From a virus, in IMG/VR virus record IMGVR_UViG_3300025137_000023, positions 19,291-83,290 of that record: a stretch of DNA of 64,000 bases. One strand, given 5' to 3'. A program made the translations under genes and the position numbers. Below are positions 19,181 to 58,553 of the stretch, in pieces. A model generated the notes under the pieces. It worked only from the letters and a program-made list of their open reading frames with translations. It had not been told where the DNA came from and made no database searches. The stretch's first letter is position 1. Every line of letters begins with the position of its first letter.

Positions 19181-19762
19181 TTAGACTGTTACAATATTAT
19201 AGATGTGTTCCCAATCCTTTGCTATTGGGTAAGGATACTCGCCATTCATGTTGTGTCCATGTTCTACAAGTATAGGTTTAAGTCCTGCTTTTGATCCTGC
19301 TTCGCAGTTTACAGGTTTGTCTTCAATCCACCAAAGTTTGGATCCTTTGTATTGTGCAAGTGTTTCATCTTTATCGTCTCCAGTACCTAAACAAATTAGT
19401 TTAGTAAAGACTCCTTCTCCGAACAACTTGTCTAAATTTTTCTGTCTTAGCCTTTTTGCATATTTGTTGTTACTTAATGATGTAATGCAATGAAACTCCC
19501 AACCTTCGTCAGCAAGTTTTGTAACATATTGAACTGCGTCACGTAGAGCAGGTAAGTATCCGATTGTAGCACTTTCATTAAACTGTCTAATTAGTGTTTT
19601 AACTTGTGCTTTCGGAATACCATAACGTTCAGCCATATCGTATTTGAACTGGTATCCTTTTGTAGTTTTAAATCCATGTTCTTCCATCCAACAGTTAAAG
19701 GCGAACTCCCAATTAAGTAGTACACCATCTGCATCTGTTAATATAATTTTTTTCAATTTCAT
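19181..19762 (-). CDS. HAD-superfamily phosphatase
   Basis: 193 residues. The N-terminal ILTDADGVLLNWEFAF holds the DxDGV nucleophile motif; CITSLSN is motif II, and WWIEDKPVNCEAG contains the terminal acidic motif. It resembles phage 5'-nucleotidase/HAD phosphatases; the substrate is unknown. A sigma70-type promoter lies 32-60 bases upstream. Confidence 0.8.
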   Translation of the reverse strand: MKLKKIILTDADGVLLNWEFAFNCWMEEHGFKTTKGYQFKYDMAERYGIPKAQVKTLIRQFNESATIGYLPALRDAVQYVTKLADEGWEFHCITSLSNNKYAKRLRQKNLDKLFGEGVFTKLICLGTGDDKDETLAQYKGSKLWWIEDKPVNCEAGSKAGLKPILVEHGHNMNGEYPYPIAKDWEHIYNIVTV

Positions 19763-25472: not shown

Positions 25473-25497
25473 ATATATTTTTCCTTATTATGAATAT

Positions 25498-25529
25498 ACA
25501 ATTACGTCCTGTAATTGTGTTAATCACAA
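25498..25529 (-). other. Mutually exclusive leader hairpins before outer-membrane gene
   Basis: ACAATTAC (25498-25505) pairs with GTAATTGT (25511-25518). TTGTG (25515-25519) can instead pair with CACAA (25525-25529). The two stems share bases and cannot form together. The 111-base gap holds no clear sigma70 or late element. Confidence 0.5.
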
Positions 25530-25583
25530 CAATAGACACCTATCGGTGCCTAAAGTTGTAAGTCTTACGGGTTGTGTCTTAGA

Positions 25584-26501
25584 TTAAATCTGAGATAGTT
25601 CAACCAATGTTGCTGAAAGATTGATCTCTGGATCGCTAACTAGAGAATGATTAACTAAACCATTTCTAATTGTTAGGATCGCTTTGTCTTGTCCTTCTTC
25701 TGTTTCGCTCCAAAGTTCCAAGTTATCATACATCCAACGAAACAAGTCTTCCATTTCGTCTGCCCTTACTTGGCTAGTTAATAGTTTTCTTGCTTCACGA
25801 ATTTTACCTTCTTTAAACAAGTCCACCATTGCTAGTTTATAATCAGCAGTAGTATTTTCACTTTCTTTTGGACTTTGTAGCTCACCATCGACATTATTCA
25901 TCTGGCATAAGTTTAAACTCTTACGCAAGTCTGGATATGTCGCTTTAACGTAACTGTCTAATACATCTAATTCAAACTTTACATTCTCGTCAATAAGAAC
26001 TTTGGCAACTCTTGCCGTAAATTCTGTTGTATCAATTTTTTCAATATGAAAGCCTTGACAACGACTATGTAATGCTGGAATTACTCTATTTGGATAGTTA
26101 CACGTTAATACAAATCTAGCAGTACTGGCATATGTTTCCATAACACCACGTAATGCCGCCTGACCATTTGGACTAATATAGTCCGCTTCGTCTAAAAGCA
26201 CAATCTTAAATTCTCCAAAAGGCATTGTTTGTACAAAGCCAGTTATCTTATCTCTAATTGTGTCTACGGAATTTTCTCTACTAGCATTTATTTCTAGTAC
26301 ATCATACTCATCAATGCCTAGTTCGTTAATTAGAATCTTTGCTAGTGTAGTCTTACCGACGCCTGGTGCCCCACTGAAAAGCAGATGAGGAATGGCGCCG
26401 GATAAGACCCAAGATTCTACTTGTTTCTTTTGTGCTTCATCTCGAAACACATAATCCCCTACAGAAGAGGGTCTATACTTTTCAGTCCATAATTCTTTCA
26501 T
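25584..26501 (-). CDS. 44: Sliding-clamp loader ATPase subunit (T4 gp44-like)
   Basis: 305 residues. It opens WTEKYRPSSVGDYVF, as RFC/gp44 proteins do. GAPGVGKTT is Walker A, VLLDEADY Walker B, TCNYPNRVIPA sensor 1, and HSRC the SRC arginine-finger motif. It loads the phage sliding clamp at primer ends. Strong sigma70-type promoter upstream, so early. Confidence 0.93.
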   Translation of the reverse strand: MKELWTEKYRPSSVGDYVFRDEAQKKQVESWVLSGAIPHLLFSGAPGVGKTTLAKILINELGIDEYDVLEINASRENSVDTIRDKITGFVQTMPFGEFKIVLLDEADYISPNGQAALRGVMETYASTARFVLTCNYPNRVIPALHSRCQGFHIEKIDTTEFTARVAKVLIDENVKFELDVLDSYVKATYPDLRKSLNLCQMNNVDGELQSPKESENTTADYKLAMVDLFKEGKIREARKLLTSQVRADEMEDLFRWMYDNLELWSETEEGQDKAILTIRNGLVNHSLVSDPEINLSATLVELSQI

Positions 26502-26577: not shown

Positions 26578-26835
26578 TTATATTTCTACTTTTTCGATTT
26601 TAGTAACTGTAAATGCTTTAGTAGTCAAGTTTGGAAAAAAAGCGTCGAATTGAGCTTGATCTTCAAATATGATTGTTCTACGTATTCCAACCGGTGGATC
26701 TAGTATTTCAAATTGAATACCAGTACAACCTGGATTGTTAGCACCGCATGGTCCGTGTTCAGCCTTGAAAGCCTCTACGTCTGCGTATGATTTACCTGCG
26801 TCGTCTTTTAAATCAGATATATGTCTAATTGCCAT
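26578..26835 (-). CDS. Small hypothetical protein, 85 aa
   Basis: Starts MAIRHISDLKDDAGKSYADV, with CGANNPGC in the middle and a beta-rich end. No known family. Preceded by an 80-base late leader with AAGGAGAAAC ribosome site. Confidence 0.65.
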   Translation of the reverse strand: MAIRHISDLKDDAGKSYADVEAFKAEHGPCGANNPGCTGIQFEILDPPVGIRRTIIFEDQAQFDAFFPNLTTKAFTVTKIEKVEI

Positions 26836-26872
26836 TGTGTTTCTCCTTAACGTCTATCCTTCTAGCATTTCT

Positions 26873-26882
26873 GCCTCGAGGC
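26873..26882. other. 10-base palindrome GCCTCGAGGC in late leader
   Basis: Perfect palindrome in the 5' leader of the 26835 gene, beside TGTAC/GTACA (26904-26916). Possible protein site or RNA hairpin of unknown function. Confidence 0.4.
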
Positions 26883-26920
26883 GTGTAGTTAGATTAAAAT
26901 AATGTACTTATTGTACAGTA

Positions 26921-56325: not shown

Positions 56326-57000
56326 TGTAAATGTTCCGGCGGTACGTTTGTTACCTTCTTCGAAACCTTTTTCTTCTAATCTTTTTTTCATTTCCAAGTT
56401 AAACTCCATACTACCACAAATCATAACTTTATCATTTTTTGGTGTTATATCGTCCCACATACCTGCGTCGATATACTTGGTAATTCTGCCTGGATTTTTA
56501 AATTCTTCTCTAGTTACTGTAGGAAGATATTCTATATCACATTCTTCTAAAAAGTTGTTGTAGGATCTTAAATCTTTTGCATAAGGTACTGTCCAGCAAA
56601 GTTTAATATTATCAAAATGGTCATATGTAGTTGGATCTCTTAATAAACTAATAAAAGGTGCAATACCTGTACCAGTTGCCATTAAGTGTAACGTTCCACC
56701 TAACTCTAAATTGTTAAGTGTTAGTGTTCCTGTTGGCTTATCGCTAATATATAAAAACTTACCTGGTTCAATATGTTGTAGTTTACTTGTCAACGGTCCA
56801 TCTGGAACTTTAATACTATAAAATTCTAAATAATCATCATAAGGGCCACTTGTATATGAGTATGCTCTTTTAAGTTTTTCTTCAGGAAAACCTATCATAG
56901 TAAATTCGCCTGCCACAAATCTGTATGTTGGTGGTCTTTCTAATTTAATTCTAAATAACTTATCCGTGTAATGTGTAACTTCTATAACTTCTAGATTCAT
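56302..57000 (-). CDS. Ferredoxin/flavodoxin-NADP+ reductase
   Basis: 232 residues. RAYSYTSGP binds FAD, GTGIAPFISLLRD binds NADPH, and CGSMEFNLEMKKRLEEKGF with the end AGTFTLEKAFVG match bacterial FNR (Fpr) proteins. It moves electrons between NADPH and ferredoxin or flavodoxin, and could feed radical SAM or Fe-S chemistry during infection. Confidence 0.9.
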   Translation of the reverse strand: MNLEVIEVTHYTDKLFRIKLERPPTYRFVAGEFTMIGFPEEKLKRAYSYTSGPYDDYLEFYSIKVPDGPLTSKLQHIEPGKFLYISDKPTGTLTLNNLELGGTLHLMATGTGIAPFISLLRDPTTYDHFDNIKLCWTVPYAKDLRSYNNFLEECDIEYLPTVTREEFKNPGRITKYIDAGMWDDITPKNDKVMICGSMEFNLEMKKRLEEKGFEEGNKRTAGTFTLEKAFVG

Positions 57001-57001
57001 A

Positions 57002-57634
57002 TTATTTTACAAATGTTCCTTGCTTTAATTTTTCTACAACAGAGTCATATGTTTCACCTAAACATTTTAGTCTAAGAATTACACGTTCTGAGGTTATCTC
57101 TGGAACACCGTGTACTGCCATTCCGTTAAACATAGTAGGGTGTTCTAGACTATAATGGTGTAAGTAATCTATATCATTATCGTCCCAACCGTATTTCTTT
57201 TCGTAGTTGATATTTCTTTCTGGTTCAATACCTTCTCTACTAAAGAAACTAATAGGAGTAATGTCTTTTACAGGTAATATTGGAAACATAATAGCACAAT
57301 TCATAAAATGATCAGTATGTGGGTGAAACTTGTAACCAACATCATAATGTAGTATATCAATATGGTCTGGATCAGGACGTTCTTTCCAATTAAACTTATC
57401 TACTAAATCTCTAACAACAGGAAAGTCTAACAAAGACATATCGTTCTTTTTCCTTATTGCTATTGTATTCATTCCTTGCCGACCTTTAAATTCTCTTTTA
57501 GTACCTCTTGCTAGATACTGCATATAATCACCAAAGTTTTCTATAAGGTGTCTATGCTCTTCAAATAAATCTTCTAAGGCTTGTCGGTCATAAGTTACTT
57601 CATCTATTTCTGTGTGAAACTTGCCTTGTATCAT
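57002..57634 (-). CDS. 2OG-Fe(II) oxygenase-like protein
   Basis: 210 residues. FHPHTDHFM gives HxD, AVHGVPEITSERVILRL the distal His and Arg; EHPTMFNGMAVHG and GETYDSVV parallel the 44329-44967 protein. One base separates it from the reductase start, so both are probably read together. Confidence 0.75.
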   Translation of the reverse strand: MIQGKFHTEIDEVTYDRQALEDLFEEHRHLIENFGDYMQYLARGTKREFKGRQGMNTIAIRKKNDMSLLDFPVVRDLVDKFNWKERPDPDHIDILHYDVGYKFHPHTDHFMNCAIMFPILPVKDITPISFFSREGIEPERNINYEKKYGWDDNDIDYLHHYSLEHPTMFNGMAVHGVPEITSERVILRLKCLGETYDSVVEKLKQGTFVK

Positions 57635-57637
57635 TTT

Positions 57638-57997
57638 TTAAATGTATCCTATTAATATAACTATAACAAAGTAATTTGTGTAATGTAATGCTTGGTCAAT
57701 AGTTTGTAATCCCCAAAACATTTTGCCATTTTTAATTACTTTGTACTTGTTTAATATTATGTGTTTTAACCAATCTATTATACAATGTGTAGTGTAATCA
57801 AACATTGATAATAGTAATGCATATTTGATATCTACAAAGAATAGTAATATAATTAGTGTTGCTACTGCGTGGTCAATACAGTGTCTATGCAATCCCCAAC
57901 TAAAAAGATTTGCTTTGTTACTTGGAGGTCGAGTAGATTGGAGAAATAAGTCGCAAACTGTGTGCTTTAGTAATAATAGTATGAATACTGCTGACAT
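57638..57997 (-). CDS. DUF3307-like membrane protein
   Basis: 119 residues with about four membrane helices. LLKHTVCDLFLQ...HRHCIDHAVAT...FDYTTHCIIDWLKH, and a last DQALHY, give the His/Asp pattern of DUF3307 proteins. Function unknown. Preceded by a possible structured RNA leader. Confidence 0.75.
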   Translation of the reverse strand: MSAVFILLLLKHTVCDLFLQSTRPPSNKANLFSWGLHRHCIDHAVATLIILLFFVDIKYALLLSMFDYTTHCIIDWLKHIILNKYKVIKNGKMFWGLQTIDQALHYTNYFVIVILIGYI

Positions 57998-58020: not shown

Positions 58021-58140
58021 GTGTTGGAGAGTAGATTCATTTCCGTTACTACGTTAAACTAAACCAATAGTTTTTTTTCAAAATCCGACCAAAAATTTAG
58101 TAATCGAAATTACTAGGGAAAGGTTTCCACCCCTCCAACA
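58021..58140 (-). ncRNA. Candidate structured RNA or 5' leader
   Basis: Minus strand starts TGTTGGAG and ends CTCCAACA, a closing stem around 104 bases. Inside are AGTAAT-TTCG-ATTACT (58099-58114), AACTA/TAGTT and possible AAACC/GGTTT pairing. A late-type element (58146-58153) sits 6 bases before it. It could be a small RNA or the leader of the DUF3307 gene. A 14-codon frame (MLEGWKPFPSNFDY) is the alternative reading. No known RNA class recognised. Confidence 0.5.
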
Positions 58141-58145
58141 TATAG

Positions 58146-58153
58146 TTATTTAT
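58146..58153 (-). promoter_or_regulatory. T4-late-type promoter before structured region
   Basis: ATAAATAA on the minus strand within the last codons of the 58146-58553 gene. Confidence 0.55.
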
Positions 58154-58553
58154 CAGTTCTATGAAATATACCTTGCTCTAAAACAAAAATTTCAAATCCC
58201 CACCCTGCTATATGTTGCCTGCCGCCACCTATTATTTTACCGCCTGCTTCTTTTTCATCGCTTAATGTACTGCTATAATGCCATACGTTATCGTGTTCAA
58301 TCATAGCAAATTGCATACCTTCTACCATATCAGCATTCATTATAGATAAGGTCTTATCACCCTTATTCCAATATAAGCCAAAATACCCACGATCGTCGTC
58401 ATTGCTAGGCTTGGTCCTGTAAAATATGTCAACAGGCACGTCAGGCTCATTGAGCTCAGTAGTGCATACATATCGTACTTGTCCATCTTGTCCAGTTCCA
58501 TAGGACTTCTCCACTTTTTCAGATTCAGTAATAGGTTCGTGCTCTATATTCAT
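58146..58553 (-). CDS. Hypothetical protein, 135 aa
   Basis: Beta-rich, Gly-containing, ending EIFVLEQGIFHRTDK. No family. Coupled by ATGA-type overlap to the small membrane gene upstream. Confidence 0.65.
   Translation of the reverse strand: MNIEHEPITESEKVEKSYGTGQDGQVRYVCTTELNEPDVPVDIFYRTKPSNDDDRGYFGLYWNKGDKTLSIMNADMVEGMQFAMIEHDNVWHYSSTLSDEKEAGGKIIGGGRQHIAGWGFEIFVLEQGIFHRTDK

Follow-up and report, generated by a model that had tools for sequence, protein, structure and literature searches.

A candidate structured RNA behind a late promoter upstream of a phage DUF3307 gene

On the minus strand of the 64,000-nucleotide window analyzed here (positions 19,291 to 83,290 of virus record IMGVR_UViG_3300025137_000023), ∼120 nucleotides upstream of a DUF3307 membrane protein gene are enclosed by a closing helix that is conserved, with compensatory changes, in a related phage. 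The helix lies directly behind a late-promoter motif that is conserved in both phages. The reading that we prefer, albeit with less than even confidence, is a conserved structured leader with which the late DUF3307 mRNA would begin and which would act in cis through a buried 5′ end. Inspection of the window sequence located all sequence features of the candidate RNA locus on the minus strand, as follows.

58146..58553, minus strand: upstream gene for a 135-amino acid protein, with a weak match to phrog_12504; its stop codon lies inside the promoter element
58154–58147, minus strand: late-promoter element GATAAATA, overlapping the TAA of the 135-amino acid gene; assigned from the strand bias of NATAAATA, intergenic enrichment, and conservation at orthologues
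58141, minus strand: predicted transcription start (A), from the T4 late-promoter spacing rule; same A at the same distance in the relative
58022..58141, minus strand: candidate structured RNA of about 119–120 nt; z −2.58 alone, RNAalifold z −4 to −5.8 with the orthologue
58130..58140, minus strand: 5′ strand of closing helix P1 (UGUUGGAGGG...), pairing with 58022–58031 in both phages; contains a Shine-Dalgarno-like GGAGG
58126..58129, minus strand: inner extension of P1, 5′ strand, UGGA (relative: AGUG), with compensatory changes
58115–58098, minus strand: hairpin UAGUAAU-UUCG-AUUACUA (7 bp), stem the same in both phages
58032..58035, minus strand: inner extension of P1, 3′ strand, UCUA (relative: UACU), with compensatory changes
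58022..58031, minus strand: 3′ strand of closing helix P1 (...CUCUCCAACA), paired in both phages
57638..57997, minus strand: DUF3307 membrane protein gene (PF11750, E 6e-8; phrog_2470, E 5e-17)

The ends of the RNA are closed by UGUUGGAG/CUCCAACA on the minus strand. Within this helix, TGTTGGAG (58140–58133) starts exactly six bases past GATAAATA, and CTCCAACA (58029–58022) is its complement. A preliminary description of this DNA had reported a late-type element ending the 58146–58553 gene and, six bases past it, a ∼120-base stretch with paired ends and a TTCG hairpin; both were found at these positions, the element overlapping the stop codon. The DUF3307 gene begins on the same strand 24 nt past the closing stem. 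Inspection of the sequence 3′ of this stem revealed no U-run and hence no terminator, so that transcription is expected to run on into DUF3307.

In the 83-kb record, NATAAATA occurs at 20 sites on the coding-rich minus strand versus 3 on the plus strand, and 13 of the 20 minus-strand sites are intergenic, although intergenic sequence makes up only about 4%. The usual position of the motif is 18–39 nt upstream of a start codon. It recurs at nearly equal distance in the related phage for 14 of 15 motif-bearing orthologous genes; the fifteenth is DUF3307 itself, for which the motif of the relative lies just beyond the searched range and is present on direct inspection. Judged by this strand bias, intergenic placement, and conservation before orthologues, GATAAATA qualifies as a true late-promoter motif of the T4 type in this phage, which bears out the late promoter of the preliminary description. 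As in a T4-type late leader, the motif occupies a conserved place just upstream of the RNA, and by T4 rules the RNA would start at about A58141, with the closing stem beginning at nucleotide 2–3.

Almost without exception, the other late leaders of this phage are short and lack structure, and in most of them GGAG or a comparable sequence stands shortly before the ATG; with 149 nt, the DUF3307 late leader is an outlier among them. We searched for 5′-terminal stems of at least 9 bp that begin no more than ten bases past the predicted start and close 70–190 nt downstream. Among 273 distinct NATAAATA sites in the phage and related contigs, only this locus and its orthologue possess such a stem; shuffled sequence yielded a comparable one at 2 of the 273 sites (about 0.7%).

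A second long late leader is found on the minus strand at 26833–26918, upstream of an 85-amino acid gene adjoining the clamp-loader gene. It comprises 86 nt (75 nt in the relative), starts with the 5′ hairpin GUACAAUAAGUAC, and exhibits a compensatory change from C-G to U-A in GGCAGAAAUGCU/GGUAGAAAUACU; its full-length match to the Rfam freshwater-2 model is sub-threshold, at 19.1 bits (gathering 49.9). Past the clamp-loader gene, tandem hairpins (such as GGCACCGAUAGGUGUC) at 25473–25583 on the minus strand are kept in the relative (RNAalifold z −7.2), and this spacer gave chance matches only against Rfam. The clamp loader itself (25584–26501) is closest, among isolates, to that of PA5oct-type Pseudomonas jumbo phages (58%). 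This similarity suggests a marine jumbo phage with kinship to the PA5oct-type group and T4.

The 121-nt sequence folds at −31.3 kcal/mol, compared with −22.7 kcal/mol for dinucleotide shuffles (z −2.58, with 0 of 200 shuffles as good), and the orthologue likewise folds better than its shuffles (z −2.91). For the whole spacer, the folding advantage is smaller (z −1.15). Rfam 15, including the manA and wcaG models, gave no gathering-level match for the stretch, and tRNAs are the only matches at that level in the window; at E values up to 10, only chance matches were obtained for the window stretch and the relative alike. The earlier statement that no known RNA class fits is therefore upheld for the covariance models of Rfam 15, which match neither the window RNA nor that of the relative.

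The sole relative found, IMGVR_UViG_3300027668_000008 (306,714 bp), carries the RNA at the same place with 78% identity. Contig 3300027704_000009 (136,449 bp) is identical to this 306-kb contig over the 661 bases compared around the RNA, and the independent sequences are thus two only, the window phage and the 306-kb relative. Both share the gene order UvdE, 61-amino acid protein, 135-amino acid protein, RNA, DUF3307, 210-amino acid protein (taken for a 2OG-type oxygenase), and reductase. Reciprocal best hits exist in the relative for 117 of the 149 called ORFs. The 78% identity of the RNA spacer matches the upper limit seen for other spacers shared by the two genomes and does not exceed it, so that pairing and placement carry the case more than conservation does. 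The conserved block begins at the predicted start and stops where the closing stem ends, and the following 24–32-nt spacer before the ATG aligns only with gaps. Further downstream, at about 56900–57850, identity to the 306-kb relative rises to 97–100%, covering the last part of DUF3307 and all of the oxygenase-like gene, compared with mostly 60–85% around it; this tract suggests a recent homologous exchange.

In a structure-blind MAFFT alignment of the two sequences, the closing helix consists of 9 pairs followed, past one unpaired column, by 4 inner pairs. The inner pairs are U-A, G-U, G-C, and A-U in the window and A-U, G-C, U-A, and G-U in the relative; in this single two-sequence comparison, they comprise two double compensatory and two one-sided compatible changes, and none is broken. 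When the partners were slid by 1–3 columns, pairing fell from 100% to 38–59%. Shuffled alignments contained a helix with two double changes at any position in 22% of cases, but one immediately within the closing stem in only 0.28%. RNAalifold energies were 4.1 to 5.8 SD below those of column shuffles under several MAFFT settings, and 0 of 200–300 shuffles reached them. The pair shuffle within the alignment tool returned 133 of 500, a test that has no power with two rows. The preliminary description had pointed to the outer stem as the place to seek covariation, and the extended closing helix displays it for these two sequences; neither a lack of covariation nor conservation of the peptide frame alone, which it had held against an RNA, was encountered.

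The interior of the RNA is less uniform, and its fold differs between the two minimum-energy structures. The stem of the 7-bp hairpin is unchanged between the phages, and its loop differs (UUCG to AUCU), which fits a hairpin but offers no covariation; its pairing probability in the window sequence is only about 0.3. A GGG..UUUCCC hairpin, which excludes the inner four pairs, appears in some consensus folds. UUUCCC, GGUCGGAUUU, and UAACGGA are identical in both sequences.

Outside these two phages, the RNA was not recovered. A covariance model run over 88 related viral and 8 phage records, the kind of search suggested in the preliminary description, retrieved the orthologue but no further member in any of these records. 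A 21-bit match was rejected, as its pairs were broken and it lay on the opposite strand in an apparent structural-gene region. BLASTN of the locus against phages and plasmids returned nothing relevant, and searches of viral and bacterial collections with patterns of the interior DNA turned up, besides the known orthologue, chance or coding matches only. Five further matches to a promoter-plus-stem pattern were likewise rejected, all being coding-like and devoid of the interior motifs. The RNA is absent from the best 80 UvdE relatives and from 16 further relatives of the 135-amino acid protein; in the stretches examined, the 80 UvdE relatives, several with a UvdE 75–77% identical, lack the 135-amino acid protein, DUF3307, and the oxygenase. 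The DUF3307 gene of each of the six isolated phages examined starts within about 25 nt of the preceding gene and has no leader. The DUF3307 family alignment was too diverse for scanning, and literature searches returned nothing on this RNA and a single passing mention of DUF3307. The RNA is probably a real structured candidate of narrow distribution. The phage DUF3307 proteins, at about 30% identity, share the invariant residues Lys-11, His-12, Asp-16, Gln-20, His-39, His-43, His-71, Asp-75, Asp-101, Gln-102, and His-105 (window numbering), which suggests a conserved site in this membrane protein of unknown function.

In the preferred reading as a cis-acting leader, the late promoter would start the RNA at about A58141, and a helix of 13–14 bp from nucleotide 2–3 would enclose a domain of roughly 90 nt with a short hairpin. 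The transcript, having no terminator, would continue into the DUF3307, oxygenase, and reductase genes. Its 5′-terminal duplex would bury the 5′ end and may thereby shield the late mRNA from 5′-end-dependent decay; the same duplex would hide the promoter-proximal GGAGG and keep ribosomes from starting there. The occurrence of the orthologous RNA at the same place, despite a median protein identity of 75%, argues for such a leader. When the window sequence was folded, pairing of the ribosome-site region was the same with or without the RNA, and no cross pairing between the RNA and the ribosome-binding site was found, so that a translational effect on DUF3307 or a switching of its ribosome site is not supported. 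In the relative, the closing stem competes with downstream coding sequence when a longer transcript is folded, and the ribosome-site test is therefore not clean there.

The same absence of pairing to the ribosome site in the window would also suit a trans-acting small RNA, cut from the late transcript after the closing stem to leave ∼119 nt with paired ends and aimed at targets in the host or the phage; a protein might bind its GGA motifs. Conservation ceases at the stem and does not extend into the spacer before the gene, and none of the isolated phages examined has such a leader in front of DUF3307. However, the stem has no terminator, the next gene on the same strand is only 24 nt away, and the RNA is single-copy and precedes DUF3307 in both phages, so we regard this origin as rather unlikely, though still the main rival. 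That the locus represents a novel class of phage noncoding RNA, a discrete late-phase species ∼119 nt long with paired ends and its own late promoter that acts in trans on host or phage targets or binds a protein, we also judge unlikely, and slightly more so. Chance pairing in an AT-rich spacer that has no function at the RNA level, with the two sequences alike through kinship, appears improbable. In its favor, the sequences are only two, about 0.7% of shuffled promoter-downstream sequences form a comparable stem, spacer identity is near the range of other spacers, and the reverse complement also folds conservatively (z −4.5); against it, the inner helix pairs are kept through two-sided changes and the stem sits at the predicted late start in both phages.

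A leader that senses a ligand or protein in the manner of a riboswitch might have the extended closing helix and the GGG/UUUCCC hairpin as its two alternating states. Both sequences can adopt these mutually exclusive consensus folds, and their three interior motifs are unchanged, but an expression platform is missing (the terminator is absent, and the ribosome site is not exchanged in the window), no known aptamer matches, and the distribution is narrow; we hold sensing to be distinctly improbable. Of the sensing leader for DUF3307 put forward in the preliminary description, the structured RNA behind a late promoter stands, whereas the sensing finds no support from a terminator, from ribosome-site pairing, or from leaders in the six isolates. 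Its alternative, a 14-codon peptide MLEGWKPFPSNFDY with an ATG at 58141 on the minus strand as the conserved product, is disfavored and hardly credible. The frame is open in the relative with equal length and the same stop, but its ATG is replaced there by ACG, and 5 of the 6 other changed codons are replacements. Moreover, the predicted transcript would begin with this ATG and lack a ribosome site ahead of it, and conservation runs 75 nt beyond the stop. A 40-amino acid frame at 58040–57918 has a TTG start in the relative and a stop there after eight codons. As for a retron msr-msd, no reverse transcriptase was found among the six neighboring genes tested.

To our knowledge, few structured RNAs have been described in T4-like marine or jumbo phages. 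5′-Terminal stem-loops, for example in the ompA leader, stabilize bacterial mRNAs; our candidate resembles such leaders in that its stem lies within the first few nucleotides, but this stem closes a ∼120-nt domain, and stabilization is putative. The phage-encoded stable RNAs C and D of T4, whose job is unknown, are similar in size to the candidate, which is not part of a tRNA cluster and is preceded by a late promoter of its own. The manA and wcaG RNA motifs are structured candidates of marine T4-like cyanophages and, like the RNA described here, are located in presumed 5′ leaders (PMC2864571), but the candidate has no cmscan match to them and different downstream genes. In T4 gene e (lysozyme), a leader structure is also combined with T4-type late promoters, which lie inside the 5′ strand of the structure, so that the late mRNA escapes it (PMC3014915). 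In our case, GATAAATA ends six bases before the structure, and with the promoter upstream, the late mRNA would carry the whole structure. The value of the locus at present is that of a well-defined candidate in two sequences, and a conserved 120-nt RNA with its own late promoter would provide a concrete, testable case of late-phase RNA control.
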